Virus record (IMG/VR): IMGVR_UViG_3300027833_000089
Location: 1 to 43,391 of that record
DNA length: 43,391 bases
Direction: 5' to 3' (one strand)
Origin: a virus
Shown here: one piece after another, positions 5,230 through 23,239 of the stretch
How positions within the stretch are numbered: position 1 is the stretch's first letter
How the letters are laid out: every line of letters begins with the position of its first letter
Translations under genes and position numbers: made by a program
The notes under the pieces: model-generated
What the model saw: the letters and a program-made list of their open reading frames with translations, nothing else
What the model was told of the DNA's origin: nothing
Databases searched by the model: none

Positions 5230-5505
5230 GTGCGTAAAACTCGCAGTATTATAGAAGAACTAAATCTTATTTCTGTAGACAGAGACAGAAATCATGCGGT
5301 AGAGAACCGCGGAGAGCACCTAATTGAAAGTGTAATTCACCTCATTGAGCGTATTGAAGAGAACTATTCGCCTGAGATAGCTAAAGATCTATCTAACAGG
5401 ATTGTGAATAGTATTCGAGCAAAAGACTCATCTAAATTTTCCCGTGGCATTAGAAAAGTAATTAAAGAAGGCCAACAGGAAAATAAAGATGAATCAAATT
5501 CGTAA
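5230..5505 (+). CDS. Small late protein, possible capsid-targeted internal protein
   Basis: 91 residues with a GTG start chosen because ACGGGAG lies 8 bases upstream and the frame begins there. The N-terminus MRKTRSIIEELNLI resembles the short N-terminal segment shared by several downstream genes, with a possible prohead-protease site after SIIE. The rest is charged and helical (SVIHLIERIEENYSPEIAKDL) with a basic C-terminal third, and lacks any known motif. It overlaps the next gene by 17 bases. The late promoter suggests a virion protein; capsid targeting is a weaker inference here than for its neighbours. Confidence 0.6.
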   Translation: MRKTRSIIEELNLISVDRDRNHAVENRGEHLIESVIHLIERIEENYSPEIAKDLSNRIVNSIRAKDSSKFSRGIRKVIKEGQQENKDESNS

Positions 5506-8431
5506 TGACTTAAACTTAATAACAGAAAGCCTTCAAATAGATGATGCATATCAAGCATTACCACTTGCAGTTAGGGAAGATCTAAAAACAATATTTAGTG
5601 AGATTTCTAAACTCAACGAGGCGGCACTTGCACCAGAACAAATTCAAAGTGTATTCCAGAGCATGGTTACTAACCGAGGCGAAGGAGGCAACACTGCCCA
5701 AGTAGCGAAAAAAGCACAAGCACAGCTAACACCTTTATTTGCAAAGATAACAGGCAATCCTAAACTTAAAGCAATATTATCTAAAGTAGGTAGCGCAGTT
5801 CCTATCGAAGGCTTAAAGAAAATGGTTGCAAAGTTACCGGATCCTGCAGGCTCGAATGCGCAGGCTGTTGTTGCTTCTATTCAAAAAGGCGCACAGTCAA
5901 TTGAAAACGATGAAGACGTAGCGGCATTTAAAGGATTAATGCTAACAGTTATTACTATTGGTATGGGTGTTGCAGGCGCAGGCGGCCCAGCAATGCTAGG
6001 TATTATCGGTACAACAGCAATATTTAGAACAGTAGTAGAAGCAGGTATTAAGGCGGCAGCTGGCGGCACAGTTGCAGACGTTGCTAAAACAGCAGGTATA
6101 GGTTTAGCTAAAGGTGCTGTTGCTGGCCTTGCAGGTGGCTTACTAGGTGGACTCGGAGATGTAGAAGTATCAGGTGATGAACAACTAATATCTGCATCTC
6201 TACCGACTCAGACAATTGACGTGACTGCACCGTTAGAAGACGCAGGAATGAGCATGGAAGAAATCGATCAGTTCATTGCTAATATGAACGCAGACGATGA
6301 AATCATGGCGCAACAGTACTTCCCTCAATTCGTTGATGACATGGAAAATGACGTTATAGATTCGATGGATAAATTCAATGTAGGCCCAGAATATGCAGAA
6401 AAATACGAGAATATGATGTCTGCTAGTGCAACTGTTGATGGTAGTACTATTAGTATGGGTGTTGATAACTTTGGGTCATCTATGGGCGTTTTGTTTAATC
6501 CAGAAGAATATGCAGAATATAATGCTATTGTTGCTCAAAACGGCGGCGGAACAGATGGACTGTTTTCAGAAGAAGCAACTGCTTTTAGAAAGTCTATCGC
6601 ATCGCAGGTTAGTTCCTCAGCAAAAAGCGAAGTAGGTGGTGATGTATCAGACAACTTAACCCAAAGTTTTGTACACCCAGAGTGGAAAAATGTACTATCA
6701 GAAGAAGTTGGCGAAGAATTTGATACACTAGTAGAGCAAGTAGGCGAGGCAGTAGCAGTATATGCTATGCTAGAATGGTACAATAGTTATGTAAAAGATA
6801 CTCAGCCTATAATTGAAGGGATGGAGTATTTACAAAAATACCAACTAATAGAAAGTGTTGAACAAACAATGTCTGAAGCACCGTCACTAGGCGATATGGC
6901 TAAGAAAGTTGGCGGCGCATATAAGTCAGCAGTAGGCAAAGCAGGCGCAGTTGCTAAGAAAGCAGGCGGCGCTGTAGTAAATACTATTATTAAGCCTATT
7001 ATAAACAGTGCTCCAGTAAAAGCATTCACAAATAAATTAACAGCATTAGTAGGTGCGCAGGGCGCAATTGATCCTGAAAAACTACAAGCAGATTACACAG
7101 CGGCGAAGTCGCCAACTGATTCAGATGCAGTTGGTAAATTCTTACAACAGAATGCAGGAGCAACAAAAGATGAAGTTGATACAGCATTTAAAGCGGCAGG
7201 TGTTCAAGCAGTAGCACCAGAAGAAGAGCCAGAGGCAGACGCAGAGCCAGCAGTAGCACAAGTAGATGCTAACCAAGACGGAAAAGATGACGCCACCGGC
7301 GCTCCTATTCCTACAGCACAGCCAGGTGATGCTGATGGTGCACCAACTTCAACAGCACAGGCACAAGTAGATGCTAACCAAGACGGAAAAGATGACGCTA
7401 CAGGCGCTCCTATTACGCCAACGGGTACTAGTACTCCAGGTGATCCTAAAACAAGCGCACAAGGCAATACAAGCAGTCCTGCAGGTGCTACAGCGGACGG
7501 TAAGACCCCGGGCGGTGCAATAAAACAAGGCATGGATAATGCTGAAGCTGGCGATAACGAAATTAAAGATGGAACCAAAAAGTCAGTTAATAAGATTCCA
7601 CATACTTGGAGTGCAGAGCAAGGAGAATGGATTAACGCACAAGGCGTACCGGCTATCGGCTTAATGAAGCAAGAGTTAATGAAGCAAGTTGGCAAAGATG
7701 TAGCTGGTGGTAACGAAAAGCCAGGCATGATGCAACGTGCTAAAGATTATGTAACAGGTAAAACGCCAGGACTAGCTCAAGCAACACGAAGCGACCCCAA
7801 GGCAAGTATACTAAAGAAAGCAGGTGCTACGGCAGCCGCAGGATTAGGCGGCATGATTGGTAAAGCACTGGGAGGCGGACAACCAGCTCCAACTCCAGGT
7901 GAACCAGCTCCAACTCCAGGTGAACCAGCTCCAGCTGGACAAGCACAGCCTGAGAAGACTCCGGGTCAATTTAAGCAAGCACATGTACCAGGCGGTAAAG
8001 GTGAAACGCAAAATGATCCATATGAAGTTGCTAAACAAGCAATACGTGGCGAACAAGGTAAAGATGCTAACAAGAAACAATTACCAGGTGGTAAATTACC
8101 GCCAGCGGCAGGTAAGAAAGTTAGTGACATGCTAGGACAATTAGCAAACGGCAATAAAGACGCTGGTGCTATTGCAGGGCAACAAATACTTGCGTATGCT
8201 AAACAAGGCTACGATGTTAGTAATGCGGCACAAGTATTCTTAGCTAAGGCAAAACAAGGTGAAAGATTCCTAAAACAAGAAAGCTACGAGTACTTTACAC
8301 AGATGTTAGAATCTTTCGGACTAGGATGGGGTGATATTGGCATTACTGTACGAATAGATGAGAGTGTTAGCGAAGGTGTTTGGCTTATATCGAGCGATTT
8401 ACTACGCATGAAAGACTTAGCAGGAATATAA
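5489..8431 (+). CDS. 980-residue Gly/Ala-rich late protein, putative head-internal protein
   Basis: The start MNQIRNDLNLITE-S contains a (I/L)xE site at residue 13, matching the T4 gp21 prohead protease pattern. Residues about 150-225 form hydrophobic, glycine-rich stretches (LTVITIGMGVAGAGGPAML, GLAKGAVAGLAGGLLGGLGD) that could insert in a membrane. A Pro/Ala/Asp low-complexity region carries two copies of VDANQDGKDDATGAPI (starting near residues 592 and 627), resembling calcium-binding type 3 repeats, and PAPTPGE repeats (799-815). The C-terminal 60 residues (YEYFTQMLESFGLGWGDIG) look folded and conserved. No enzyme motif is seen. Together with the late promoter this suggests a large protein packed in the head and perhaps ejected with the DNA. 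Function unknown. Confidence 0.6.
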   Translation: MNQIRNDLNLITESLQIDDAYQALPLAVREDLKTIFSEISKLNEAALAPEQIQSVFQSMVTNRGEGGNTAQVAKKAQAQLTPLFAKITGNPKLKAILSKVGSAVPIEGLKKMVAKLPDPAGSNAQAVVASIQKGAQSIENDEDVAAFKGLMLTVITIGMGVAGAGGPAMLGIIGTTAIFRTVVEAGIKAAAGGTVADVAKTAGIGLAKGAVAGLAGGLLGGLGDVEVSGDEQLISASLPTQTIDVTAPLEDAGMSMEEIDQFIANMNADDEIMAQQYFPQFVDDMENDVIDSMDKFNVGPEYAEKYENMMSASATVDGSTISMGVDNFGSSMGVLFNPEEYAEYNAIVAQNGGGTDGLFSEEATAFRKSIASQVSSSAKSEVGGDVSDNLTQSFVHPEWKNVLSEEVGEEFDTLVEQVGEAVAVYAMLEWYNSYVKDTQPIIEGMEYLQKYQLIESVEQTMSEAPSLGDMAKKVGGAYKSAVGKAGAVAKKAGGAVVNTIIKPIINSAPVKAFTNKLTALVGAQGAIDPEKLQADYTAAKSPTDSDAVGKFLQQNAGATKDEVDTAFKAAGVQAVAPEEEPEADAEPAVAQVDANQDGKDDATGAPIPTAQPGDADGAPTSTAQAQVDANQDGKDDATGAPITPTGTSTPGDPKTSAQGNTSSPAGATADGKTPGGAIKQGMDNAEAGDNEIKDGTKKSVNKIPHTWSAEQGEWINAQGVPAIGLMKQELMKQVGKDVAGGNEKPGMMQRAKDYVTGKTPGLAQATRSDPKASILKKAGATAAAGLGGMIGKALGGGQPAPTPGEPAPTPGEPAPAGQAQPEKTPGQFKQAHVPGGKGETQNDPYEVAKQAIRGEQGKDANKKQLPGGKLPPAAGKKVSDMLGQLANGNKDAGAIAGQQILAYAKQGYDVSNAAQVFLAKAKQGERFLKQESYEYFTQMLESFGLGWGDIGITVRIDESVSEGVWLISSDLLRMKDLAGI
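7256..7309 (+). repeat. 54-bp direct repeat, copy 1 of 2
   Basis: Nearly identical to 7361-7414, with only a few third-position changes. It encodes AQVDANQDGKDDATGAPI, an Asp-rich D-x-N-x-D-G motif like calcium-binding loops. Confidence 0.85.
7361..7414 (+). repeat. 54-bp direct repeat, copy 2 of 2
   Basis: Second copy of the 54-bp unit at 7256-7309, 105 bases downstream in the same frame. The differences are synonymous, so the protein repeat is under stronger constraint than the DNA. Confidence 0.85.
7883..7934 (+). repeat. 21-bp tandem repeat encoding PAPTPGE
   Basis: CCAGCTCCAACTCCAGGTGAA occurs twice in perfect tandem (7883-7903, 7904-7924), followed by a partial, diverged third unit. 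It gives a Pro-rich flexible linker and is a likely slippage hotspot. Confidence 0.85.
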
Positions 8432-8434
8432 TAA

Positions 8435-9724
8435 ATGAGATTTGTAGAAATATCAAAGCCTCTTGTAACTAAGATAATAAGTGAGAGCTTTTTACTAGAA
8501 GCAAAGAATACGCATATGGAACACCTAGAAGACAATATCTTTAATAAAGGGTATGCAGGTGCTAAAGAAGCAGTAGACTACTTATACAGTTTGCATCAGA
8601 TGCTCGACGGGCATGGCAAAAGTAAAATGGATATGACAATCAAGTGGGATGGCGCACCTGCATTAGTATGCGGAAAAGATCCACAAACAGGTAAGTTTTT
8701 TGTAGGTACAAAGGGTGTGTTTGCGGGCAAAGCAAAACTAAACTTTACAGAAAAAGACATCGAAGAGAATCATGCAGACCGCGGTGAGAACAGCGGCGAA
8801 GGTTTGAGAGTTAAACTTCGACTAGCACTTAGAACATTAGGTAAACTAAATTGGGACACTGTAGCACAAGGTGATATGATGTTCATGAAAGGTGACATCA
8901 AAGAAATAAGCTATGACGGCATACAATACATAATGTTTAAGCCTAATACACTTGCGTATGCTGTACCAAAAGATAGCGACTTAGCAAAGCAAATGTTATC
9001 CGCTGAAATTGGAATGGTATGGCACACGGAATACTCCGGAGGACCAACACTAGCTGATACATCTGCTTCGTTTGGATTCGACGCATCGCGATTAGGTGAT
9101 GGCAGTAATGCTGGTGTATGGCAGACAGATGCTAACATTAAAAACTTAGCGGGCACAGTTACAATGACTGCCGAAGAGTCAGCAGAAGTATTATCCTCAA
9201 TTAAGGCGGCAGATGCATACACTAAACAGATCGGGTCTGATGTATTTAATTGGTTACAAACAGGTAATGATTTAGTTGGTAAGGAATTCCTACAGCAATT
9301 AAAGGCCACAGTTAATAACAAAGTTAGAGCAGGAGACTTCGGTAGTCCAGAAAGCCTAGCAAAAGAATTCGTAGTTAAATGGATAGACAAAGCTACAAAA
9401 GATATCGATAAAGTTAAACTGCAAAAAACTAAAGATGTTAAAATAGAAAAAATGGTTAAGACAGTTGCATTTATCAAGGAACATGTAAAAGAAATTACAG
9501 CAGTATATGACTTATACTTGATGCTTATTAAATCAAAGATAATTGTTATGCGTAAGATAGCAAATTTACAAACAACGCAAACGTTTGCACAAGAAGGCGA
9601 CGACTTTGTGCCAACAAGTGGTGAAGGATTTGTTGCTATTGATAGATTAGGCAATGCTATTAAGTTAGTTGACCGTATGGAGTTTAGTAGACTCAACTTT
9701 GGCACAGGTAAACCGGGCGCATAA
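8435..9724 (+). CDS. Ligase/nucleotidyltransferase-like late protein with capsid-targeting type N-terminus
   Basis: 429 residues, 3 bases after the previous stop. The N-terminus has two candidate prohead protease sites, IISE-S (14-17) and FLLE-A (19-22). Residues 66-80 read DMTIKWDGAPALVCG, with K70-x-D-G matching motif I of ATP-dependent ligases and capping enzymes, where Lys takes the nucleotide. FFVGTKGVF and QGDMMFMKGDIKEISYDG follow at distances plausible for motifs Ia/III, and IMFKPNTLAYAV comes after. The C-terminal half is Lys-rich and helical. A nucleotidyltransferase fold is inferred from motif I and spacing; substrate and activity are unknown. Its stop overlaps the next start (TAATG). 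Confidence 0.6.
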   Translation: MRFVEISKPLVTKIISESFLLEAKNTHMEHLEDNIFNKGYAGAKEAVDYLYSLHQMLDGHGKSKMDMTIKWDGAPALVCGKDPQTGKFFVGTKGVFAGKAKLNFTEKDIEENHADRGENSGEGLRVKLRLALRTLGKLNWDTVAQGDMMFMKGDIKEISYDGIQYIMFKPNTLAYAVPKDSDLAKQMLSAEIGMVWHTEYSGGPTLADTSASFGFDASRLGDGSNAGVWQTDANIKNLAGTVTMTAEESAEVLSSIKAADAYTKQIGSDVFNWLQTGNDLVGKEFLQQLKATVNNKVRAGDFGSPESLAKEFVVKWIDKATKDIDKVKLQKTKDVKIEKMVKTVAFIKEHVKEITAVYDLYLMLIKSKIIVMRKIANLQTTQTFAQEGDDFVPTSGEGFVAIDRLGNAIKLVDRMEFSRLNFGTGKPGA

Positions 9725-10530
9725 TGGACTTAGAATTTATAGACAATGAGATATCAGAGAGTAGGTTGTACAGATCATCTGGCAACATGGCTCGACTTAC
9801 TGGCAGAGACGTAGCAGACTTAGCATACTTAAATACATTAGTACTGTACATGATGTTACAAGATGATGTACAACATGACTATGCAAAACAGTATGCACAA
9901 AAGACATCACAATATGCTGGTTACTCATTGTTTAGAACTAACGCCACAGACTTATATTTGTTATGTCATGTTCTCAAAGAACCAAAGACAACAAAGATAA
10001 ACCTACAAAATAAAAGAGAAAGCATACGTTTCTTAGATACATTGCATTTTGATTTCCGTAAACATTTAATGTTTATGAAGAAATTAGCAAACTCATCGGA
10101 CAAGAAAAATGAAGCAGTGAGTTTCTTTTTTAGACTAGAAATGCAACTTAACATTAAAGACAGTAAGTTTAAACAGTATAGACGATATATAACAGATTGG
10201 GGCAATTTAAAAACTGCATCTAGGCAAACAGTAGTTGCTAGAATATTACAGTCAATGAGAGCATTAGGCAGAGGTAGTGAATTAATAGGCCCGATGACTA
10301 GCATGACTAAGTATAGAAAGTTCACCACAGAGCCTGCATACGATGTTCCTAGAACAAGCATGGCACAGAAGTTTGCAGGAGCCGCAGTAGGCGCAGTAGC
10401 TGGACGATATGTTGGAAAGAAAGTAGCACAGTATGCTAAAAATAATCCCGACACTGTTAAAAAAGTTGGAACAGGTATCGGTGCAATAGCAGGTTATTGG
10501 GCCGCTGGACGTAAGAAGAAGCAAATATGA
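9724..10530 (+). CDS. Late protein with C-terminal glycine zippers, putative head-internal protein
   Basis: 268 residues. The N-terminus MDLEFIDNEISE-S has an (I)xE site at residue 12. The central part is helical and rich in Lys/Phe/Tyr (RKHLMFMKKLANSSDKKNE). The C-terminus has two glycine-zipper-like stretches, KFAGAAVGAVAGRYVGKKVA and GTGIGAIAGYWAAGRKKKQI, typical of membrane-inserting helices with a basic tail. This would suit a protein that crosses or anchors in the host membrane after ejection. It overlaps neighbours on both sides (TAATG and ATGA). Family not recognised. Confidence 0.55.
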   Translation: MDLEFIDNEISESRLYRSSGNMARLTGRDVADLAYLNTLVLYMMLQDDVQHDYAKQYAQKTSQYAGYSLFRTNATDLYLLCHVLKEPKTTKINLQNKRESIRFLDTLHFDFRKHLMFMKKLANSSDKKNEAVSFFFRLEMQLNIKDSKFKQYRRYITDWGNLKTASRQTVVARILQSMRALGRGSELIGPMTSMTKYRKFTTEPAYDVPRTSMAQKFAGAAVGAVAGRYVGKKVAQYAKNNPDTVKKVGTGIGAIAGYWAAGRKKKQI

Positions 10531-11030
10531 AAATAAGAGATATTATACTAGAAGTTACTGCAGAAGATCGTAAGAAACTCATTGATCTAAGAAACTTTGG
10601 CAATGTTGACCTCGCTAATAGAATACAAGTGTATATTAACATGGGATTGGATTGGGATACTGCATCAGAGAATGCACGAATTGATCGCAAAGAAAAAGCA
10701 GAATCAGGAAAAGACGCATTTGCAAGACGTAGAGCTAATAGAGCTACTAACACTACTAACGATCAAGCAACACCTGCTAAATTACAACGTAAAGATGCGC
10801 CAAAGCCAGATGGGAAAACATTACCGGTTGACCGAGCAGGGTCAGGATGGAGTGATGAGACACATGGTCATCTACGCCGCGGGGATGGCGGCACGATTAA
10901 GAAGGCATTGAAAAAGCTAAACCCTACTGCAGGTTTAGATACAACAGACCTAGGTACTACAATTGGGTCAGCTATTGCAAAGCAAAAAAGTAAGTCTAAG
11001 AACTTAGACTCATTTAAGATACAGAAATAA
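10527..11030 (+). CDS. Late protein with clear capsid-targeting type N-terminus
   Basis: 167 residues, overlapping the previous gene by 4 bases. MKIRDIILE-V is among the clearest copies of the shared N-terminal segment, with a predicted prohead protease cut after Glu9. The body is basic and polar (DAFARRRANRATNTTNDQ; SAIAKQKSKSKNLDSFKIQK), suggesting interaction with packaged DNA. DETHGHLRRGDGG is the only motif-like stretch and I do not recognise it. It is the last gene of the operon from the promoter at 5192; a perfect palindrome overlaps its stop codon. Confidence 0.6.
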   Translation: MKIRDIILEVTAEDRKKLIDLRNFGNVDLANRIQVYINMGLDWDTASENARIDRKEKAESGKDAFARRRANRATNTTNDQATPAKLQRKDAPKPDGKTLPVDRAGSGWSDETHGHLRRGDGGTIKKALKKLNPTAGLDTTDLGTTIGSAIAKQKSKSKNLDSFKIQK

Positions 11031-13037: not shown

Positions 13038-13445
13038 ATGACATTACCAGCAAGAGCAGGAGCTATGAATAGCCAGGAAGTTGTTACGGGTAATATTGAA
13101 TTTTACACACTGTATACATCATTGGATCTTACCCATACAGGCAACTTTAGTGATGTTACGCAAAAGGACTTTGAATGTGTTGTTCAGGTAATTGGATTGC
13201 GAGCAATGCCAATTATTATGAATAAACCAGTTGCGTTAAGCGGAGTAGGAAGTTTAGTATTAGAGAATTACGGAGCACCAAGTTTAACAGGTGCAGGCTG
13301 GATTTTTAAATTTGCGTTTGAAAGAGAAGCAGTTCATACTATAGCAACATTAACAGACGAACTCGATAGTATTGTATTAAATGCAGGCACTATCGACACT
13401 ACGGGTTCCATTAACATGGAATTCACTAAACAGGATTTATTGTAA
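13038..13445 (+). CDS. Late structural-type hypothetical protein
   Basis: 135 residues, first gene after a late promoter, with an AGGAGA ribosome site. The sequence is a beta-rich single domain (NIEFYTLYTSLDLTHTGNF; MPIIMNKPVALSGVGSLVLE; WIFKFAFEREAVHT) without enzyme motifs, as in small tail or head proteins of T4-like marine phages. No family is recognised. It is followed after one base by a small membrane protein and the packaged-protein genes, so it may be a virion component. Confidence 0.55.
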   Translation: MTLPARAGAMNSQEVVTGNIEFYTLYTSLDLTHTGNFSDVTQKDFECVVQVIGLRAMPIIMNKPVALSGVGSLVLENYGAPSLTGAGWIFKFAFEREAVHTIATLTDELDSIVLNAGTIDTTGSINMEFTKQDLL

Positions 13446-13446: not shown

Positions 13447-13701
13447 ATGCCAAAGAAGATATTACCAGAAGAAGCTATTACTGAATTAGATCGGGCAACT
13501 GGTTATTCGGGTAATATAGAAGCACATATAATTGCGGACATGTTACGCATAGAATCGATCACTACAGAGTTACGTGAGTTTAAAACTGACACTAAAAAAC
13601 GATTTGATAAAATAGAAGGATGGCTTGTTAGCATAGTTGCAATAACATTTACATCACTAATAGGTACAGTAGGTACTTTAATTTATAGGATGCTTGTATA
13701 A
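13447..13701 (+). CDS. Small membrane protein, coiled coil plus C-terminal helix (XhlA or holin-like)
   Basis: 84 residues, with the ATG at 13447 chosen because the longer frame runs back into the upstream gene. The middle is a charged helix (IADMLRIESITTELREFKTDTKKRFDKIEG) predicted to coil, followed by one transmembrane segment (WLVSIVAITFTSLIGTVG) and a short basic end. This arrangement is like XhlA-type small holin-associated proteins. Its place among head-internal genes also allows a role in DNA ejection. The stop overlaps the next ATG (TAATG). Confidence 0.55.
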   Translation: MPKKILPEEAITELDRATGYSGNIEAHIIADMLRIESITTELREFKTDTKKRFDKIEGWLVSIVAITFTSLIGTVGTLIYRMLV

Positions 13702-13982
13702 TGAGAATTGATGAATTTGTCGATGAAGAAATTGTCGAAGCACGAATGGTTTGGCGCCGTATGGGCAACAAAATTAAACGTGCAGTTCGTTGTACTAGTG
13801 GACGAAGAGCCGGCAGGGTTGTAGCTAATCCAAGTCAGTGTTCCGCTCCGTTGGATATCAAAAAGCGTATGACGCTGAAGAGAACTAAAGCAAAACTCGG
13901 TAAGCGCATGATTCGTAAGGCCCGCAGAACAAAGAGATTCAACCCTACTGCAAAACGATTAAAACAACTTAACAGGCGATAA
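13701..13982 (+). CDS. Very basic, capsid-targeted DNA-binding protein
   Basis: 93 residues. MRIDEFVDEEIVE-A matches the T4 prohead protease pattern after Glu13, with an acidic leader that would be removed. The mature part is extremely Arg/Lys-rich (GNKIKRAVRC, KKRMTLKRTKAKLGKRMIRK, KRLKQLNRR) and has a conserved-looking core (CTSGRRAGRVVANPSQCSAP) with two Cys. An acidic removable leader and a polycationic body are what one expects for a protein packed with DNA in the head, like the T4 internal proteins. The function is inferred from charge, N-terminus and operon context. Confidence 0.65.
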   Translation: MRIDEFVDEEIVEARMVWRRMGNKIKRAVRCTSGRRAGRVVANPSQCSAPLDIKKRMTLKRTKAKLGKRMIRKARRTKRFNPTAKRLKQLNRR

Positions 13983-13984: not shown

Positions 13985-16900
13985 ATGAAAGGTACGGACA
14001 TACGCACAGTTGATGCGTTAATTACAGAGTATGGCATGAGCCAAGGCAGTAGCACTCCTACTAGTCAGCAACAAAGCGGCGCATCTGCAAAAATAAGTGC
14101 CGCAAGTAAGCCACAGAAAAGTCCAACAACCGCGCCTAGTCAAAGTCCTACTACACAGCAAAATAAAATGGATACTAGCGCACCTGCAGAGCCTGAAGCA
14201 CCGGTTGTTAACAAAGCAAGAGAACTAGCCCAAGATTTAGAATACCAAGACGATGCTGGCGATACTGTTAAAGTTATTAGCCCACACGGTCAGGGTAAAA
14301 ACAAGAATAGTGTTATTGTGCAGAATCAAAAAAGTAAAGAATTCTACACAATAGATCCTAACGATGATATCGAACTACCGGCTATAGAAGAAAAAATAGA
14401 CCTCGATAAAATTTCAAAGCGTAAGAAAAAGCTACATAAAAAAATAAAAAGATTACTCCGTGCGCAAAAGCACTTACAACAAGGAGAAATCGTAACTGAA
14501 ATTAACTTCAACAGTAAAAATCTTGCCCAAGAAGCATTGCAAGCATCAATAAGATGCGGATTTGAAGCAGAAACAGTATGGGAAGGTATGTCAGAAGTCG
14601 ATGAAGACGACGACATGTCAGACAAGACTTGGTCAGAGATTGAAGATTTGATCAATGACCAAGAAGGCTATCGCGGTGTAGAATCAGTAGAAGAAGGATT
14701 TAGGGAGTGGATCCAAGAAACTGATTACTTCTATGATGCAGAAAGAGAAGTAATAGATGACCTAGTTAGCGACCGCAAAGACGACGAAGAGTTTGCTAAT
14801 CGTTACGTAGACAACAGTGTATCTATGGACGATGTTGACGAATATAAAGAAATGATTATGTCAGATTTAGCCATAGATGCTGACAGCGAAGAAGCACAAG
14901 AAGAAATCGAAGAGCGCAATTCATGGGACGAAGCGGCATGGGCTAGAGAATATGTCGAAGTAAATGAAGCTGATGCATTCGAAGAATGGCTAATAGACGA
15001 TGTTAGAGATAATGGCGAAGCATGGGATCAAGCATGGGATACTGTTTTAAATCAACATGATCCAGGTACTTGGTGCGATGAGGAGTATAGAGGCAGTTGG
15101 CGCGAGCTGTTAGGTAATATGGACATCTGGTTATACGCAGATGACGGCGGCGGCATGGACGCAGTTGCTACCCAGCTAGAAGAATGGGCAAGCAATAATA
15201 GTTTTTCAAATGATGTCCGGGCAGGTAGCTATCACAGCGGTAAAAGTGTTGATAACAACTACTGGCGTGTAGAAGATGACAGTTCAATTGAAGCCAACAG
15301 CGGCCTCGGTGCAGAGCTTATTAGTCCGGTATACGATACCCCAGCAGACATGCTTAACGAAATGAAGAGTTTGTTTGAGTTTATGCAAGAGAGAGATATT
15401 GTAACGAATAGATCAACTGGCATGCACGTTACTATGAGTATGAAAGATAAGGGCGCAGAGAAAGTGAACGCTCTAAAAATAGCATTATTACTAGGTGACA
15501 AGTATGTGCTAAAGCAGTTTGGCAGAGAAAATAATACTTATACCGACAGTCAACAAGCAAAAATACAATCTTATGTAGAAAACTTAACTGCTAATTTTAA
15601 AGATCAAAAGAGTCTCGAAGGATTAGAAGAAATACTTACTGGTGCTATAGGCGCAGGCAAGTTTAGTAGTATTAATTTTAAGACATCAGGCGGTGACCCT
15701 GTTACTAATGACGAAGGTAACCAGTTAATTGAGTTCCGTGTTGCAGGTGGTGATGATTATCACAGAGACGATACTAAACTTATAAAAACAGTTATTAGAT
15801 ATGCGGCAGTAATGCAGGCAGGTCACAATAAAGATGCATACAGAGCAGATTATATTAAAGCATTATTCCGTGTTCTTAATTCAGTAGGTGAAGTTGACCC
15901 TGACACTGAAAAGAATGCAACATCATATATCGATCCCGAAACAGTAGATACTAAAACAGTAGACGCATTTAAGGCAATAGCAAGTAAGCAGTCTTACAAA
16001 GATGTACTAGAATATTTAGGCATGGCTTATTCAGCTCGTGCAAAAGCAAATAAACTTAGCTCTGCTAATCCTCAACAAGAACTACAGTTTGAGGATGCAC
16101 ATGAAGACAGACAGTTAAGCCGAGAACTCCAAGAGAAAGCAAAGCAGTATTTTACTAAAGCAATGTCTTTGTTAATAGCTGATATTGCAACTGGACGAAA
16201 TCGTACCGAGCCTAAAGTGCAACAAATTGCAGGAATACGAGCGGCAGTTAAAGACTTTGGTATACCAGTACCTGAGCTATATCAAGCAACGCTAAAGTCA
16301 AGGCAATTTGAAGTTATCCCCGGTGGACAGCATGACCGCGAAGAAGCGTTTGCTACTGCGTTAAACAATTTACTAAAAGTTAAAACAGCTACAGCAAGAC
16401 AAGCAGAGTTTACAATTACATTTGATCGAGATAAAGATACACTCTGGATGCCTACTGCATACCGGGATTATTTAAGTAACGAAGGCAACTTAAACATATT
16501 TGGCACTGATACACCTGGCACTAAACCGCCTAAGATATCTGCTGAACTCTTTAAGAATGTACCTAAAACTAGTCATGACACTGTCCGTGGTGCAATAAGT
16601 CACTATTCGGATATTGCAGATGACGTGAGACGTGAAACAGACCTTATACAACGCATGGCCGCTGATCCTGATGTGGATCTCGTACCACTAAACGCAAGAA
16701 AAGAAAAGGTAGCAGGCTGGCAAAAAGAGATGGAAAAACATCTCCAAATCATAGACCAATTTAATAAAACTTATCAGTTTGTTCCTACTGCGCATCTAAG
16801 AGACTTGAAAGCGATATTTGGAGACAAAAAATATAATCTATATAGTAGAGTGAACAATGAAATAATAGACTATATAACTAAAAAATACAATATTCGATTC

Positions 16901-18358
16901 ACCGCAAAAGCAACAGAGAGTAAAAATATGTTTGAAAAATTTGAAAAATTATCATTAAAAGAGCAACTAGCATTTGTTAGCAAATTTGATACTAAGCAGA
17001 TTAACGAAGCGCACACGATAAGCAGAAAGAAAATGCTAAAGGAAGGCGCAGTACCTAACAATAGTGCAGACAGAAAAGTCAAGCAACTATTAAACGTACC
17101 GTTACTAGCAAACGATCTTAAAGCACAGATGGAAGCATATTTTGTTATGCCTATTCCTAGCATGATCAAAGCATTTAGAGAAGCAAGATCGTATGCAGGC
17201 GATAACTTTGATTTAAGACCAATATTTAAAAGTTTCTTAGATAATAATGCGCACCCAGAACTTAAAAAGAAAGCAGGCATTACAGAAAGTACTTTACTCG
17301 AGTATACTGATCTTAGTGTTGAGCGTGATTCGATTATAAAAATTATTAGCCAGCTGGACGTAACAGACGAGCAACAAGCACAACTGTTAGATAAAATTTA
17401 CAAGATAATTAACAGCGAGCATATATCAACTACAATTGGTACAGCATTTTCGAAGCCACTAGACAAAGAACCGCTGGGCGATACTGAAAAGCTACAAATT
17501 AAAGCAGACATGGCAGTTGTTATTGCTGGATTGAACAGTAACTTTGCCGCTATTAACCAGTTCTTAGACCAATTATTAAAGACAGGCAGTATTGTAAATT
17601 TAAAAGAACTATCAAAGCCCATGAACACGCTTAGTGCTTGTTTAAACGGCAGTGACGTAGCACTACAGGCACTACAAGCACTTTCTACATACGGCGTAGG
17701 TAAGAAGCAAAAAGGCCCGGGCGAGTATGCATTAGCTATTCTTAGTGATAAGATACACTTAGCAACAGGCGAAGGCGATTTAGAAATAGAAGGAATAGGC
17801 AAAGTAGAACTTAAAGCGGCTAACTCGAGTGCTGGCGGACGTATTGGGTATGGCGGCGGCTCTCAGAAAATGAAACGTGATGCAATTGCACAGTTTGCAG
17901 AATATATTCCAACTATAATGGCACACACTGACAGCAAAGGCGGAAGTATGGGCCTAAGACCATTTATTGACGCATTGAATGCTGACTTACCGATAACCGA
18001 TATGCAGAATCAAGCAGTGCGTAAGAAAATTATGACGGCATTGCTTGTAATGGATATGGAAAGTTATGCAGGCCCGATTATAAACAAAATAGCAACGTCA
18101 GATAATATTAGTGAAATTGAAAGCATATACTTACAGCAAAACTTCTTATGGTATAAAAACAGAGATGCATTTGATGCACTGTTACTAATACACATACCTA
18201 ACCAAAAAACGTCAATGATTAAGAATGAACAAGATCTTGCCGCATGGCACAGAAGCGGTCATGCACAAACGCTTAGTGTAAGTATCATTCCTACACAAGC
18301 AGGCGCAGGACGCGAGCAGTGGGCCCAGTTAACAATTAATAAAGCGAAAGTAGGCTAA
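13985..18358 (+). CDS. 1457-residue late protein with amidoligase-like domain and capsid-targeting type N-terminus
   Basis: MKGTDIRTVDALITE-Y ends in an (I)xE site at residue 15. A disordered Ser/Thr/Gln/Pro-rich linker (20-75) leads to a Lys-rich helix. SIRCGFEAETVWEG (about 189-202) fits the first strand of amidoligase (COOH-NH2 ligase) domains; a very acidic helical insert of about 240 residues follows. GLGAELISPVYDTPADML (about 438-455), NRSTGMHVTMSM (near 480) and QLIEFRVAGGDDYH (about 580-593) fit the later amidoligase strands and His motif. Residues 650-1457 are mostly helical with no motif I recognise. Family role: ATP-dependent amide bond formation. Substrate unknown. The enzyme may be delivered into the host with the DNA. 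Stop overlaps the next start. Confidence 0.6.
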   Translation: MKGTDIRTVDALITEYGMSQGSSTPTSQQQSGASAKISAASKPQKSPTTAPSQSPTTQQNKMDTSAPAEPEAPVVNKARELAQDLEYQDDAGDTVKVISPHGQGKNKNSVIVQNQKSKEFYTIDPNDDIELPAIEEKIDLDKISKRKKKLHKKIKRLLRAQKHLQQGEIVTEINFNSKNLAQEALQASIRCGFEAETVWEGMSEVDEDDDMSDKTWSEIEDLINDQEGYRGVESVEEGFREWIQETDYFYDAEREVIDDLVSDRKDDEEFANRYVDNSVSMDDVDEYKEMIMSDLAIDADSEEAQEEIEERNSWDEAAWAREYVEVNEADAFEEWLIDDVRDNGEAWDQAWDTVLNQHDPGTWCDEEYRGSWRELLGNMDIWLYADDGGGMDAVATQLEEWASNNSFSNDVRAGSYHSGKSVDNNYWRVEDDSSIEANSGLGAELISPVYDTPADMLNEMKSLFEFMQERDIVTNRSTGMHVTMSMKDKGAEKVNALKIALLLGDKYVLKQFGRENNTYTDSQQAKIQSYVENLTANFKDQKSLEGLEEILTGAIGAGKFSSINFKTSGGDPVTNDEGNQLIEFRVAGGDDYHRDDTKLIKTVIRYAAVMQAGHNKDAYRADYIKALFRVLNSVGEVDPDTEKNATSYIDPETVDTKTVDAFKAIASKQSYKDVLEYLGMAYSARAKANKLSSANPQQELQFEDAHEDRQLSRELQEKAKQYFTKAMSLLIADIATGRNRTEPKVQQIAGIRAAVKDFGIPVPELYQATLKSRQFEVIPGGQHDREEAFATALNNLLKVKTATARQAEFTITFDRDKDTLWMPTAYRDYLSNEGNLNIFGTDTPGTKPPKISAELFKNVPKTSHDTVRGAISHYSDIADDVRRETDLIQRMAADPDVDLVPLNARKEKVAGWQKEMEKHLQIIDQFNKTYQFVPTAHLRDLKAIFGDKKYNLYSRVNNEIIDYITKKYNIRFTAKATESKNMFEKFEKLSLKEQLAFVSKFDTKQINEAHTISRKKMLKEGAVPNNSADRKVKQLLNVPLLANDLKAQMEAYFVMPIPSMIKAFREARSYAGDNFDLRPIFKSFLDNNAHPELKKKAGITESTLLEYTDLSVERDSIIKIISQLDVTDEQQAQLLDKIYKIINSEHISTTIGTAFSKPLDKEPLGDTEKLQIKADMAVVIAGLNSNFAAINQFLDQLLKTGSIVNLKELSKPMNTLSACLNGSDVALQALQALSTYGVGKKQKGPGEYALAILSDKIHLATGEGDLEIEGIGKVELKAANSSAGGRIGYGGGSQKMKRDAIAQFAEYIPTIMAHTDSKGGSMGLRPFIDALNADLPITDMQNQAVRKKIMTALLVMDMESYAGPIINKIATSDNISEIESIYLQQNFLWYKNRDAFDALLLIHIPNQKTSMIKNEQDLAAWHRSGHAQTLSVSIIPTQAGAGREQWAQLTINKAKVG

Positions 18359-18894
18359 TGAAAATAATCGACTTTTTAACAGAAGCAAAGAAAGTTCTTG
18401 TACAAGAAAGATTACCGTATGGTAAAAAAGATCTCGACCCTGTAATGAGCGAAAGCACTATTAACTATCACTATGGCAAACTTGCAAAGGCATACGTTAC
18501 TAAGTTTAATGCAGGTGAAGGAGATGCTACATTTAACGAAGCAGGTGCATTCTTGCACAACGTATTCTTCCCACAATTAAAAGCACCGGGCGGCAGTAAT
18601 GCCCCAACTGGTGCAAGTAAAGAACTTATTATTAGCAAGTACGGTAGCTATGACAACTTTAAAGAAAAGTTTACAGAAGTAGCAATGAAAATCCAAGGAA
18701 GTGGCTGGGTTTATATGAGTACATCTGGCGATATTAAGACTATTACAAATCACCAAGTAAAAAATGATATAGCAATGTTAGTCGACTGGTGGGAACATGC
18801 ATGGGCACTGGACTACCAACAAGACAAGGCAAAATATCTCACCAATATGTGGCGCATTATAAATTGGGACGTCATAAACATTAGACTAAACTAA
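18358..18894 (+). CDS. Fe/Mn superoxide dismutase with capsid-targeting type N-terminus
   Basis: 178 residues. MKIIDFLTE-A carries a prohead protease site after Glu9. The rest is a clear Fe/Mn superoxide dismutase, slightly shorter than the usual 190-200: LPYGKKDLDPVMSESTINYHYGK at the N-domain, FLHNVFF, GSGWVYM, and LVDWWEHAWALDYQ followed by WRIINWDVI. All four metal ligands can be placed: H38, H67, D143 and H147. It converts superoxide to oxygen and hydrogen peroxide. It overlaps the amidoligase-like gene by one base (TAATG) in the late operon. Late expression plus targeting leader suggests it is carried in the head. Confidence 0.88.
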   Translation: MKIIDFLTEAKKVLVQERLPYGKKDLDPVMSESTINYHYGKLAKAYVTKFNAGEGDATFNEAGAFLHNVFFPQLKAPGGSNAPTGASKELIISKYGSYDNFKEKFTEVAMKIQGSGWVYMSTSGDIKTITNHQVKNDIAMLVDWWEHAWALDYQQDKAKYLTNMWRIINWDVINIRLN

Positions 18895-18915: not shown

Positions 18916-19098
18916 ATGAAAATTTCAGATATAATTATAGAAACAACAGCTGGCAGTATTGCTACAGTTGCAATGCCTATGGGCGGAATGAGAAAGCGTC
19001 CTAATCCAAGTGTGTTTGCAAAGACAAAAAAGACAAAGAAAAAACTTAAAGCAGGAATAACAGGCGCAGTAGAAGGTGCAGATGATACAAGCAGATAA
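18916..19098 (+). CDS. 60-residue basic protein with capsid-targeting type N-terminus
   Basis: MKISDIIIE-T is a very clear copy of the shared N-terminal segment with an IxE site at Glu9. A short hydrophobic stretch (GSIATVAMPMGGM) and a Lys/Arg-rich part (RKRPNPSVFAKTKKTKKKLK) follow. The gene has no visible ribosome site; a GGTAAATA box ends 5 bases before its ATG. It overlaps the downstream gene by 17 bases. It may be a small internal protein that binds packaged DNA, or a peptide released by proteolysis. No family recognised. Confidence 0.6.
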   Translation: MKISDIIIETTAGSIATVAMPMGGMRKRPNPSVFAKTKKTKKKLKAGITGAVEGADDTSR

Positions 19099-20023
19099 TC
19101 GTTGGGCTCAAATGTATGGCAACGCATTCGCAAAAGAAATAAGCAATCAAAAAACACAAGAAGTAACACGCAACAATGTAAGACGTACCATAGAGTATAG
19201 CTCAACACAACCTTATATATTTCGAAACACACAAGAAGGACTAGCGGCAGTAGGAATTGAAGTTTTATCAGAAGATACCTATACTGCATGTAAGTGGTCC
19301 CCAGCTGATATCTGGCTTAATCCTAAGTCACCTAAATATAAAATAACTAATAGACAAAAGAAGCAACTCAAATTCTACGGCTGGTGGGACAACGAAACAG
19401 ACCAAGTAGCAGACATTTGGTATAAAACAAATAATCAGGGTTTCCGTGATAAACATTTTGGCGGGGATGAACCGGGCATAGCATGTTTTGGATGTAGCCA
19501 CACATATGGATCAGGTATACATAGCCATCAAAATTGGCCTTCGCAACTAGCAGAACTAACAGGTGAAAAAACATTTAACTTAGGAACGCCGGCATGTTCA
19601 TTACAGTTAGGCGTTTGGTATGCACTAAACTTTATAGATAGAGACATTCCTAACTTAACAGGCATTGCAGTGTTTGTTCCACCTATGGGCAGGGCACCTG
19701 TTGCTATGAAGAGGCCAGATCAAGACCATTACTTTGTTAGCAATATGAGAGTAGAACTGCTAGAGAATGTCTCCCCGGAACTAGAGCTAGATACTGCTAC
19801 ACTAGACAAATATGTTAATATGATGGGAGCAAGTGCGCAAATGTCCTACGACATGCATCTAAAAACATTACAGTTACTTGCAAAACAACGTGGTATCCCA
19901 ATTGCTATAATACACCCGCAAGACATAACACCAAGCGACTGGGCCAGGGACCTAATGCATTTTGGTCCTGATACACACAACAGTATAGCAAGAATGGCAA
20001 TGCAAAAATTAGGTAGATTTTAG
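19082..20023 (+). CDS. SGNH/GDSL hydrolase, first of a tandem pair
   Basis: 313 residues with ATG 19082, preferred over the upstream GTG at 19076 because AGAAGG (19071-19076) is correctly spaced. IACFGCSHTYGSGI contains the nucleophile block GxSxTxG with S139; NLGTPACSLQLGVWY provides the glycine block; the C-terminal DLMHFGPDTHNSIA gives the Asp290-x-x-His293 pair and the usual GPxTH. The N-terminal 130 residues are specific to this pair (QKKQLKFYGWWDNETDQVADIWYKTNNQGFRD). Family role: esterase or deacetylase on glycans or lipids. It is probably a virion or cell-surface-modifying enzyme. 67-70% look-alike gene follows immediately (by eye, not computed). Confidence 0.75.
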   Translation: MIQADNRWAQMYGNAFAKEISNQKTQEVTRNNVRRTIEYSSTQPYIFRNTQEGLAAVGIEVLSEDTYTACKWSPADIWLNPKSPKYKITNRQKKQLKFYGWWDNETDQVADIWYKTNNQGFRDKHFGGDEPGIACFGCSHTYGSGIHSHQNWPSQLAELTGEKTFNLGTPACSLQLGVWYALNFIDRDIPNLTGIAVFVPPMGRAPVAMKRPDQDHYFVSNMRVELLENVSPELELDTATLDKYVNMMGASAQMSYDMHLKTLQLLAKQRGIPIAIIHPQDITPSDWARDLMHFGPDTHNSIARMAMQKLGRF

Positions 20024-20024
20024 C

Positions 20025-20921
20025 ATGAGTGCAGATCATCGATGGTCCCAGATGCGCGAGCATGGAAAAACTAGGCAAATAGACAAAACAGAATTAAGCA
20101 TAGCAACTAAAGAAACAATAAGGAAGACAATAGAGCATAGCTCTACTGCACCTTACTTGCATCGCACCCAATCGGGCATCGAATTAATCCAAGACGACGA
20201 CTACAATCTTTGCAAATGGACACCTGCAGATATATGGCTCAAGGATGGATTCAGCAGTAGACAAAAGAAGCAACTCAAGTACTACGGCTGGTGGGATTTA
20301 GATACTAACGAACTAGCTGATATATGGTACAAAACAAACAGGCAAGGTTTCCGTGATGACCACTTTAGTAATAGGCAAGGTATAGCATGTTTTGGATGTA
20401 GTCACACATACGGCTCAGGTGTACATAGCCATCAAAGTTGGCCTTCGCAACTAGCAGAACTAACAGGCGAAAAAACATTTAACTTAGGAACACCCGCAGG
20501 CTCTTTGGCGTTAGGCATTTGGTATGCACTGCATTGCTTAGACGAAGACTTGCCTAACTTAACAGCTATTGCTGTTCTTGTTCCGCCTATGGGCAGGGCA
20601 CCTGTTGCTATGAAGCATGATGATTTTTACTTTGTTAGCAATATGAGAGTAGAATTACTAGAAATTATCTCACCTGAACTAGAGCTAGACATTACTACTA
20701 TAGACAAGTATGTGGATATGATTACTGCCACTTCTCACATGACTTACGATATGCAATTAAAAACATTAGAACTAATTGCTAAGGCAAGAGGTATTCCGTT
20801 AGTAGTAACTCAACTAAGCGAAATAACTCCTAGTGATTGGGCTAGAGATATGGTACATCACGGTCCTCGTACACATCTAGACGTTGCAAAAGTAACTATG
20901 CAAAAATTAGGTAAATACTAG
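20025..20921 (+). CDS. SGNH/GDSL hydrolase, second of a tandem pair
   Basis: 298 residues, one base after the previous stop. It is collinear with the preceding protein over nearly the whole length: matching SRQKKQLKYYGWWD, CFGCSHTYGSGVHSHQ (S126), WPSQLAELTGEKTFNLGTPA, PPMGRAPVAMK, and DMVHHGPRTH (D275, H278). All catalytic residues are retained, so both copies may be active. It lacks about 15 residues of the first copy, mainly before GWW. The pair arose by tandem duplication. Differences concentrate in the N-terminal third and in the stretch after YFVSNMRVELLE, which may set substrate choice. Confidence 0.75.
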   Translation: MSADHRWSQMREHGKTRQIDKTELSIATKETIRKTIEHSSTAPYLHRTQSGIELIQDDDYNLCKWTPADIWLKDGFSSRQKKQLKYYGWWDLDTNELADIWYKTNRQGFRDDHFSNRQGIACFGCSHTYGSGVHSHQSWPSQLAELTGEKTFNLGTPAGSLALGIWYALHCLDEDLPNLTAIAVLVPPMGRAPVAMKHDDFYFVSNMRVELLEIISPELELDITTIDKYVDMITATSHMTYDMQLKTLELIAKARGIPLVVTQLSEITPSDWARDMVHHGPRTHLDVAKVTMQKLGKY

Positions 20922-21159: not shown

Positions 21160-21164
21160 CCTGT

Positions 21165-21554
21165 ATGAACAAGAAAAGACTAACTAAGCAACTAGATACT
21201 ATAGCCACAAACGTAGCGAAGAAAGGAATCTTTATCGTTACTAAATCCGACGACTTCTTTATAGTGCAAGAACACATCACTAAAAGAGTAGTACATAGAG
21301 ACTTACCTATGCGAGGTATTGCCGAGTATTTGTGCAAGATGCAGAACAAAGGCAAAACACCGAACGAGCACGTCAAGAGAGAGATAAAGCAATTAGTATC
21401 ACAATATTTCAAGTTAAATAATGACATGTTGTTTTATCAGCATACACTAAAATCCACTAAGGATTCAACAAGATGGCATGCTACATACGCAAGACTACAC
21501 GAATGCAGAGCTAGATTCACGTTCACAAAGAAAGAGCTCGCGAGCTTCAAATAA
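21165..21554 (+). CDS. Conserved-type phage hypothetical protein
   Basis: 129 residues. The start at 21165 is chosen because the longer frame extends back into the upstream gene without a ribosome site, and the MNKKRLTKQLD start directly follows a late promoter. It is basic and mostly helical, with a beta hairpin near the N-terminus (KGIFIVTKSDDFFIVQEHIT) and a Cys-containing helix at the end (RLHECRARFTFTKKELASFK). No motif is recognised. Likely leaderless late expression. Confidence 0.55.
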   Translation: MNKKRLTKQLDTIATNVAKKGIFIVTKSDDFFIVQEHITKRVVHRDLPMRGIAEYLCKMQNKGKTPNEHVKREIKQLVSQYFKLNNDMLFYQHTLKSTKDSTRWHATYARLHECRARFTFTKKELASFK

Positions 21555-21570
21555 AATCATCGACAAAGAT

Positions 21571-21578
21571 GATAAATA
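21571..21578 (+). promoter_or_regulatory. T4-type late promoter GATAAATA
   Basis: GATAAATA lies 42 bases before the ATG at 21621. It heads a unit of three or four late genes that ends at the terminator 23585-23609. Confidence 0.8.
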
Positions 21579-21620
21579 ACAGTAATATAGAATTATAGTT
21601 AAACACTGGGATTGGATAAC

Positions 21621-22901
21621 ATGTTTTTAAAAGAATTTAATTTAACAGGCGCTAAAAAAATCGCCAAAATCAATAAGATGCTAAGAGAAGAATTTGGCGT
21701 ATCGCTGAAGACTAACGGTTTTCCGCGTAAAGCAAAACTCGATAGCTTACTTGAATCAGCGAATAATTTCATTATTCAACTTAAAGGTTCACACAAGAAA
21801 TTTCAACTAGAGCCAGAGTATGCAAAATACTTAGGCATTAAAGACGTAGTTGAAACAATGATTGCAGAAGGGCAGTATGCAGAATCACAAGCATACACTG
21901 AAATGAAGTCTATGATTTCTGCAAGTGTTAAGAACTTAATGGACAGCGGATACACTGTAGACGAAGCATGCAACGAATGCATGAATCAGTTTAGAATGGA
22001 TAATCGCTTTGCATATGATGACGAGCATGTATTGCCTATCGTAATTAAAGCATCAAAAGAATACATGGAATCATGTGGCGCTTTAGAAGAAGTTGTTGAA
22101 GAGGAATTCCCAGAAACCAATTCAGATCTAAACGAATACTTGTTGCGTGAACTTGCTAAAGAGTGTGGTGTAGAATTATCAGATGCTACAAGTTACGATG
22201 CAATTGAAGAAAAGTTAAATATGTTTTCCGCAGTAAGTGGCAAGAGCAGAGATACTGTTGTTGGCTTCTTAAACGGACTAGAAGAAGATTCAGTTAGCAA
22301 CGGTATTAAAATGTTCGGTGCTAAAGTAGCAGAACAGAACAAATTCACAGGTTCTAGACAAGATGCTATTGATGCAGGCGAAGAAGAATTTGAAGTAGGC
22401 GGTAAGAAGTTTAAAGTTACTGGCGAAGAAGTTAAGGAAGCCGGTATGTTTGATGACATACTAGGCGAAATGATTTCAGAAGAAGTTGATGTAGAGCAAG
22501 CTGAAGTAATTATGGCAGTTAGGGCATTAGCAGATGATATCCAAGACCAAGTAGAAAGAATCGGCCGCATGATGAATGAAGATGTTCCTGCAATTGCAGA
22601 TCAAATGCGTGGCGAGATGGGCGCACAAACTGCTCAAGCATTCGCAGACAGCATTAATGGTGTACTAGCAGGGTATATAGATGCCGCTAAAGGTGCAAAA
22701 GCTGGCGTTGACCAAGCAACTGCAACTGTTACCGGTGAAGAAACATTAGCTGGTGGCGAAACAGGCTTAGGCGATACAGCTGAACTTGGTGTAGAAGCAC
22801 CTGCAGATGATTTAGGTCTAGATACTGCACTTGATACTAACGAACCAGCCATGGCTGGACCAGAGGACGAGCCACTAGGCAGAACACCTGTAGAGGTATA
22901 A
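21621..22901 (+). CDS. Virion/head-type protein with acidic C-terminus
   Basis: 426 residues from the ATG at 21621; a TTG at 21612 in frame is less likely. The N-terminal half has MLREEFGVSLKTNGFPRKAK and long helices, with segments like YAKYLGIKDVVETMIAEGQY. The middle has short repeats rich in Glu/Val (GEEEFEVGGKKFKVTGEEV). The C-terminus (about 335-426) is Ala/Gly/Glu/Asp/Thr low-complexity. The Met-poor, acidic, helical composition and late promoter fit a scaffold or core-type or other structural protein seen in T4-like marine phages. There is no clear similarity to gp22 by eye. Function inferred from context only. Confidence 0.5.
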   Translation: MFLKEFNLTGAKKIAKINKMLREEFGVSLKTNGFPRKAKLDSLLESANNFIIQLKGSHKKFQLEPEYAKYLGIKDVVETMIAEGQYAESQAYTEMKSMISASVKNLMDSGYTVDEACNECMNQFRMDNRFAYDDEHVLPIVIKASKEYMESCGALEEVVEEEFPETNSDLNEYLLRELAKECGVELSDATSYDAIEEKLNMFSAVSGKSRDTVVGFLNGLEEDSVSNGIKMFGAKVAEQNKFTGSRQDAIDAGEEEFEVGGKKFKVTGEEVKEAGMFDDILGEMISEEVDVEQAEVIMAVRALADDIQDQVERIGRMMNEDVPAIADQMRGEMGAQTAQAFADSINGVLAGYIDAAKGAKAGVDQATATVTGEETLAGGETGLGDTAELGVEAPADDLGLDTALDTNEPAMAGPEDEPLGRTPVEV

Positions 22902-22903
22902 CA

Positions 22904-23239
22904 ATGTTAATCAGAGAAGTCATTTTATCTGAAGGTTACTTTAGCGAGCTAATTACAACTGTACAAGACTTGTTAGTTCGTGTAGCCGCTAAAGACATTA
23001 AAGAAGTTTCGACAGAGAAGTTTAGAAAAGTATTAGCAAAGCAAGGATTTATTACAACAATCGATGAACTAATCACAGCAATTGATCAAAGTGGATATGC
23101 ATCAAGCGTAGACAAAGACAAGATTGTTCCTAATAATCAACTACCAGACACAGTAAGCACAGGCGAAGAAGAAGACGAAGTTGACGTAGCCGGAATGGCA
23201 GGCGATCAAGCAATCGCAGATATTAAATCGGAGTTATAA
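22904..23239 (+). CDS. Small late protein with capsid-targeting type N-terminus
   Basis: 111 residues, 2 bases after the preceding stop. MLIREVILSE-G has the M-x-I-x-x-hydrophobic-x-x-E pattern with a predicted prohead protease cut after Glu10 and Gly next. A helical domain follows (SELITTVQDLLVRVAAKDIK; ITTIDELITAIDQSGY), then an acidic tail (STGEEEDEVDVAGMAGDQA). No family recognised. It is the only member of the proposed targeted set in this operon, beside the large head-type protein. Confidence 0.55.
   Translation: MLIREVILSEGYFSELITTVQDLLVRVAAKDIKEVSTEKFRKVLAKQGFITTIDELITAIDQSGYASSVDKDKIVPNNQLPDTVSTGEEEDEVDVAGMAGDQAIADIKSEL

Follow-up and report, generated by a model that had tools for sequence, protein, structure and literature searches.

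The stretch of DNA analysed here, positions 1 to 43,391 of IMG/VR virus record IMGVR_UViG_3300027833_000089 (43,391 bases, hereafter the window), comes from the genome of a marine jumbo myovirus related to PA5oct, and in it nine open reading frames (ORFs) between positions 5489 and 23239 start with a leader of 9–22 residues ending in (I/L)xE (Table 1). These leaders are very probably capsid targeting sequences of the T4 type, whose cargo would be enclosed in the head, cut after the Glu and probably ejected. The mechanism as such is known; the cargo set and the phage group are new. An earlier note on this DNA had described such leaders on about ten proteins and read them in the same way. The shared leaders proved real and above chance, albeit on nine proteins, and the T4-type reading gained support from the clustering of the leaders in one block, the conservation of the site in orthologs, the agreement with functional positions of T4, the presence in relatives of gp23 and of an S77 protease of T4 type, and the coincidence with published virion proteomes. 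The motifs named in the note exist, but several had been misplaced: MKIRDIILE belongs to 10527 (the list had suggested 5489), MKIIDFLTE to 18358 and MKISDIIIE to 18916.

The primase and helicase of the window, together with their neighbours, have their matches in PA5oct, MIJ3 and Callisto, which are jumbo phages of Pseudomonas, and the gene order of window 227–30808 is common to PA5oct gp264–gp240, running parallel. Closer kin than PA5oct are found among metagenomic contigs, including G018 (339,794 bases), a close 340-kb relative in which a 12-kb block (190,243–202,448) is syntenic with the window and whose superoxide dismutase (SOD) is 80% identical to that of the window.

In the ten-residue capsid targeting sequence of T4 IPIII, residues 4 and 7 are the main determinants of targeting and residues 8 and 10 those of processing (PMC9026906). 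The T4 controls IPII, IPIII, Alt and gp24 fit this register, and the leader of IPI is longer and ends in ITE↓A (arrows mark cut sites throughout). Among the window leaders, the corresponding spacing hxxhhxE (h, hydrophobic) falls exactly at the cut site in 10527, 13985, 18358 and 18916, and is found further upstream within the leader in 8435 and 13701; all nine have a short N-terminal (I/L/F)xE site ahead of the protein. By residue pattern, hydrophobic positions 4, 7 and 8 and Glu10 characterize the leader set as a whole, not each protein. The likeness to the T4 internal proteins IPI, IPII, IPIII and Alt, which are cut by gp21, comprises about ten N-terminal residues with hydrophobic positions 4/7/8 and Glu 10, a tag borne by otherwise unrelated proteins, and an S77 protease with a gp23-type capsid, here seen in relatives. 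The window differs in that nine such proteins stand together in a single block of a jumbo phage related to PA5oct and include SOD and enzymes of predicted ligase and glutamine synthetase fold, and in that its M-K-I-x-(D/E) leaders are one residue shorter while others reach 22 residues. Moreover, T4 internal proteins are cut after Glu, whereas cleavage in the window phage is predicted.

The T4 positions recur in DUF6267, the family of the protein encoded at 8435, whose relatives occur in hundreds of marine phages (465 phage records in the collection searched) and whose leaders in these phages conserve positions 4, 7, 8 and 10. An automatic leader test is passed by 55 of 67 distinct DUF6267 N-termini, most of the others being very short (MLLVE↓, MELLNE↓). 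In the 34 leaders of ten residues, F4 is found in 31/34, L/I8 in 34/34 and E10 in 34/34, positions 2, 3, 5, 6 and 9 being more variable; as these leaders were selected by length, E10 is in part a product of the selection, which F4 and L/I8 are not. As a separate observation, T4 gp2, the DNA end protector (L346:14062-14886), has a start, MAIFQIINE↓S, that likewise agrees with the targeting register. The ejection proteins of SPN3US and phiKZ offer a more distant parallel: they are likewise head proteins of jumbo phages with N-terminal propeptides cut by a prohead protease, and some are ejected, but most of these propeptides span 111–254 residues, share no common short tag and belong to another phage lineage.

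Similar N-termini could also arise from start-site or composition bias (MK-rich starts in an AT-rich genome) and have no targeting role. The pattern is indeed short and degenerate and is matched by UvsX as well as by a few non-virion proteins. In its short form, the motif matches 5/868 start codons in the window, all within the block, as against 0/563 in the reversed window (P(≥5) ~1e-4, pooled reversed background). The same pattern gave 7 matching start codons on the whole G018 contig, 6 of them within the syntenic block (p ~2e-9 for this placement), the seventh being a GTG that lies 176 codons inside a frame. That the matches of a 340-kb genome concentrate in a single block argues against a mere bias, as do the P3 and P1 residues kept across divergent orthologs, the T4 positions conserved in DUF6267 and the coincidence of the leader with virion proteomes, and we regard such an origin of the leaders as extremely improbable.

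Orthologs vary in most leader residues while the (I/L)xE site is kept. For the basic protein of ORF 13701, all 10 distinct ortholog leaders have (I/L/V)xE followed by (A/G/N/T)RMVW, with MRIDEFVDEEIVE↓A, MKLDEVTGGELVE↓A, MRIDEFTDVEITE↓G and MILEDIAQDIVVE↓N as examples. SOD orthologs start with MKIIDFLTE↓, MKVNDFLTE↓ or MKLHDFLTE↓, those of ORF 18916 with MLIKDIITE↓, MKINDIIQE↓ or MKINEIISE↓ (two copies in G018), and those of ORF 22904 with MLIREVISE↓G, MLIKDITE↓S or MRIAEVFLLE↓S. L(I/L)xE↓Y is retained in orthologs of ORF 13985, EISE↓(S/A)RLYR in those of ORF 9724 and LITE in the nearest orthologs of ORF 5489. At the 5489 locus, other relatives encode a different protein with a leader-like start. 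Likewise, at the 10527 position some relatives carry another protein, again with a leader of this type (MKINEIILLE↓, MRIDEIIAE↓, MKIKEIIRE↓), so that the cargo is exchanged and the tag retained. Across 67 distinct leaders from nine families P3 is I or L in 65/67; since the split points in this set were placed by eye, only this preference carries weight.

The exchange of cargo bears on a further possibility, namely that the leaders tag head or core proteins akin to gp22, gp67 and gp68 for scaffold binding or assembly, and do not mark enzymes delivered to the host. The short basic and glycine-zipper proteins could be core proteins, and PA5oct gp333 (MKINDIITE↓) lies directly behind the portal gene, in the place of T4 gp67/68. 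Nevertheless, a canonical-fold SOD and enzymes of predicted glutamine synthetase and ligase fold would make poor scaffolds, and the cargo at one locus differs among relatives whereas the leader stays; a pure assembly role is in our estimate unlikely.

Concerning the cargo itself, the earlier note had guessed at SOD, amidoligase-like and ligase-like enzymes, all three of which are now backed by Pfam or structural matches, and its remark that the bearers have nothing else in common is borne out at fold level for these three. ORF 18358 contains both Pfam domains, Sod_Fe_N/C, with YHYGK, HNVFF and DWWEH aligned to solved SODs, and by its fold domains and metal-ligand motifs it is an Fe/Mn SOD. Solved SODs align from residue 17 of the window protein on, so that the leader represents an added extension, of ~12 residues relative to cellular SODs. 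In a direct alignment, LTE↓A of the window SOD falls on IAE↓A of the PA5oct SOD gp223. From ~80 phage SOD loci that were read, 23/23 distinct N-termini carry a (hydrophobic)xE site ahead of where the SOD fold begins, as against 3.3 expected from shuffling, the independent cases being fewer than 23 as the sequences are related. Many phage SODs may accordingly be packaged, as their leaders suggest.

ORF 8435 matches Pfam DUF6267 at E 1e-96, and its orthologs retain hydrophobic-x-E before the core. The structural model has a predicted local distance difference test score (pLDDT) of 81, with residues 1–26 below 50 and the fold beginning after the leader; the low confidence of the leader is consistent with disorder. 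Comparison of the DUF6267 protein with the PDB by sequence gave no match, Foldseek with the model gave no significant match, and none of the papers searched mentions DUF6267. When the Foldseek candidates were aligned with VIA-align, ligases surfaced as nearly all of the top 50, the top matches having Z 6–7.8 and being led by Naegleria RNA ligase, T. brucei REL1 and T4 Rnl1/Rnl2; the best Z, 7.8, lies under 8, with a root-mean-square deviation (rmsd) of 4.3 over 189. In motif I, KxDG, residues K70, D72 and G73 are invariant in 19 DUF6267 sequences. The ligase matches together with the invariant motif make a ligase-type nucleotidyltransferase likely. At the corresponding position of PA5oct, gp256 (L043:10525-11862) combines a KIDG motif with a motif-V-like stretch, EGYV..KIVD; it shows no clear leader and is undetected by mass spectrometry (MS). 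Profile comparison of DUF6267 with gp256 was weak, and only the motif-V-like stretch aligned.

ORF 13985 reaches the Amidoligase_2 profile at E 7.5e-5 (23.2 bits against a cut-off of 22), and the PDB gave no match to its amidoligase region by sequence. All of the top 50 structural matches of its middle region belong to the glutamine synthetase family (Z 7.5–9.5; best Z 9.5, rmsd 3.6 over 177), on a model of modest quality with a predicted template modelling score of 0.44. The region is accordingly predicted to have a glutamine-synthetase-type fold and fits the amidoligase family profile. The Gly-zipper match of ORF 9724 is weak (Pfam, E 0.09). Pfam gave no match for several cargo proteins that bear leaders in other phages.

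The leaders coincide with detection in virion preparations of other phages. In PA5oct, where detection status was taken from the electrospray ionization tandem MS notes in its GenBank record, the short motif in the central region occurs on 5/87 detected and 0/118 undetected proteins (p 0.013; p 0.05 if gp103, with leader MKLSEICILE↓, found later, is counted). A loose motif (hydrophobic-x-E anywhere in the first 25 residues) had no power, with 30/87 against 40/118. PA5oct gp246, the ortholog of ORF 22904, is detected and has the leader MKIKDILVE↓S, and SOD gp223 is also marked as detected. The block gp262–gp239 thus resembles that of the window in gene order, in several detected homologs and in the leaders of gp246 and of SOD gp223; it differs in having fewer leader proteins, in its SOD lying elsewhere, and in a ligase-like protein, gp256, that is undetected and has no clear leader. 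PA5oct also has a second leader cluster, gp103–gp105 (L068:23678-25301), in which gp104 and gp105, both MS-detected, carry HELxHALD metallopeptidase-like motifs.

In cyanophages, the published table for CsCl-purified S-CREM2 virions (PMC10665884) lists a SAM (S-adenosylmethionine) hydrolase, an APH/ChoK-like kinase, a cytidylyltransferase, a Cas9-like nuclease and two endolysins, which its authors regard as non-structural virion proteins while leaving contamination open. The hydrolase (MKDFDSFLEE↓), kinase (MKRFDAFLTE↓) and cytidylyltransferase (MKNFSSFLTE↓) start with leaders, as do the detected unnamed ORFs 13 and 136. The virion-detected Cas9-like nuclease (L342:7704-10313) has RFASFMAE↓A with the site at residue 25, in exact register; a packaged nuclease would be striking, Pfam gave no match to this protein and its name rests on its record. 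In S-SCSM1, the MS-detected virion protein NMNAT has the leader MKSFLQFLKE↓A and is one of three non-structural proteins flagged by the authors, again with contamination left open. A kinase gene of S-CRM01 begins MISFDQFLSE↓, and this is likely the putative kinase that was detected in S-CRM01 virions (PMC10665884). The S-CREM2 and S-SCSM1 enzymes are alike in being non-structural enzymes detected in CsCl-purified virions and in having the same kind of leader; in the S-CREM2 paper, capsid targeting and cleavage go unmentioned. Among the papers searched, "capsid targeting" and "cyanophage" occur together only in a T4 review.

The detected enzymes could be abundant soluble contaminants of the preparations, with the leader serving membrane or nucleoid association or the like. 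The reservations of the S-CREM2 and S-SCSM1 authors and the nucleotide enzymes on the PA5oct list speak for this. However, the odd virion enzymes are those with leaders in T4 register, whereas the leaderless soluble NrdA and NrdB of S-CREM2 were undetected, and contamination appears a very unlikely explanation.

Several observations weigh against T4-type targeting. The virion evidence comes from homologs or leader-bearing analogues in other phages; the PA5oct MS list includes ribonucleotide reductase, thymidylate synthase and FtsH and is not purely virion; and over three S-CREM2 loci the strict register is found on 4/44 detected and 2/123 undetected proteins, with p only 0.04, the detected set being diluted by tail proteins. 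The leaders of 5489, 9724 and 22904 are off the exact T4 register. The pattern alone yields false positives, such as UvsX (MADFLKQIIKE) and two undetected S-CREM2 proteins, and even the exact T4-register pattern catches unrelated starts besides UvsX; the pattern by itself is thus no proof. The SOD of Vibrio phage 2.275.O and the DUF6267 proteins of P-HM2, S-PM2 and S-CRM01 begin without a leader, so that packaging of these enzymes is either not universal or achieved by other means there. Finally, the protease gene is absent from the window: a search for gp21 and gp23 in the 43-kb window and close fragments found neither, and the gene order of the long fragments that were tested ends short of the gp21/gp23 module. 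Both an S77 prohead protease and gp23 are encoded in G018 and in a 355-kb contig with a leader-bearing SOD. Candidate cut sites in gp23 are HLQE↓S (G018) and FLVE↓N (PA5oct), ~28 residues before a conserved IRRVMP.

On the T4-type reading, each leader (hxxhhxE or a close variant) would bind the scaffold core during head assembly, and the core-bound cargo would be enclosed as the gp23-type shell closes. The S77 prohead protease would then cut after the Glu of (I/L)xE, leaving the mature protein free inside the head, which DNA would fill after leader cleavage. The mature cargo, comprising SOD, the RNA-ligase-like DUF6267 protein, the glutamine-synthetase-fold amidoligase, small basic proteins and several others, would probably leave with the DNA and act before any phage gene is expressed. 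Core binding, shell closure, cleavage, DNA filling and co-ejection are established steps for T4 internal proteins, and packaging and cleavage in the window phage are inferred by analogy, from the shared tag and the like machinery of relatives. Ejection is more speculative, as are the roles of SOD against superoxide and of the ligase in RNA or tRNA repair against cleavage by host defence.

Whether the (I/L)xE code extends further, as a general modular cargo-loading system of T4-related marine and jumbo phages that injects a toolkit for antioxidant defence, RNA repair and amide ligation at the very start of infection, is a broader proposal towards which we lean with reserve. If so, the gain of a short leader would turn a gene product into a virion-delivered effector, and the otherwise unexplained enzymes of cyanophage virions would be accounted for. 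The leader would provide a sequence rule for predicting which phage enzymes are carried in the head, possibly as the first to reach the host, and make the puzzling cyanophage enzymes a testable system. DUF6267 is proposed to be an enzyme of RNA-ligase-like type that is packaged, at least in its leader-bearing forms, and proteins with a leader but no assigned function are candidates for a part in host take-over or anti-defence.

Table 1. Leaders of the window and neighbouring genes with PA5oct homologs (all coordinates in the window).
Feature	Position	Strand	Bearer or remark
Leader MNQIRNDLNLITE	5489..5527	+	980-aa protein rich in Ala and Pro, ORF 5489-8431; off the exact T4 register
Leader MRFVEISKPLVTKIISESFLLE	8435..8500	+	DUF6267 protein, ORF 8435-9724; predicted RNA-ligase-like nucleotidyltransferase fold, KWDG motif I
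Leader MDLEFIDNEISE	9724..9759	+	268-aa protein, ORF 9724-10530; C-terminal glycine-zipper-like stretch
Leader MKIRDIILE	10527..10553	+	167-aa protein, ORF 10527-11030; exact T4 register
Leader MRIDEFVDEEIVE	13701..13739	+	93-aa very basic protein, ORF 13701-13982
Leader MKGTDIRTVDALITE	13985..14029	+	1457-aa protein with predicted glutamine-synthetase-fold amidoligase domain, ORF 13985-18358
Leader MKIIDFLTE	18358..18384	+	Fe/Mn superoxide dismutase, ORF 18358-18894
Leader MKISDIIIE	18916..18942	+	60-aa small basic protein, ORF 18916-19098
Leader MLIREVILSE	22904..22933	+	111-aa protein, ORF 22904-23239
Leaderless virion-type protein, PA5oct gp259 homolog	5230..5505	+	phrog_11854 'virion structural protein', E 3e-17
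Leaderless PA5oct gp250 homolog	13038..13445	+	gp250 MS-detected; 36.6% identity, E 4e-24
PA5oct gp247 homolog	21621..22901	+	gp247 MS-detected; window copy without leader site
Leaderless PA5oct gp245 homolog	23246..23563	+	gp245 MS-detected; 36% identity, E 7e-16
PA5oct gp243 homolog (N-terminal part)	24390..26879	+	gp243 is an MS-detected structural protein

Two further N-termini were considered as leaders and rejected. That of ORF 5230 (MRKTRSIIEELNLISV), which the earlier note had listed as a weaker case, is conserved as part of the protein itself, in relatives as well as in PA5oct gp259, and the window copy of ORF 21612 (real ATG at 21621) lacks a site at the leader position. G018 encodes an additional 65-aa basic protein (195301-195498, minus strand) with the leader-like start MKIVEITE↓N just upstream of its SOD, which was not seen in the window.

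Immediately behind the small leader protein of ORF 18916, window 19076-20921 holds a tandem pair of paralogs that share a CFGCSHTYGSG motif and may be SGNH-hydrolase-like; Pfam gave no match to them. Elsewhere the window encodes a subtilase (Peptidase_S8, E 1e-18) at 32469-34079 on the minus strand, a protein with a weak asparagine-synthase-type match (E 2.5e-4) at 34175-35197 and a Class 3 lipase (E 3e-26) at 35859-36662.

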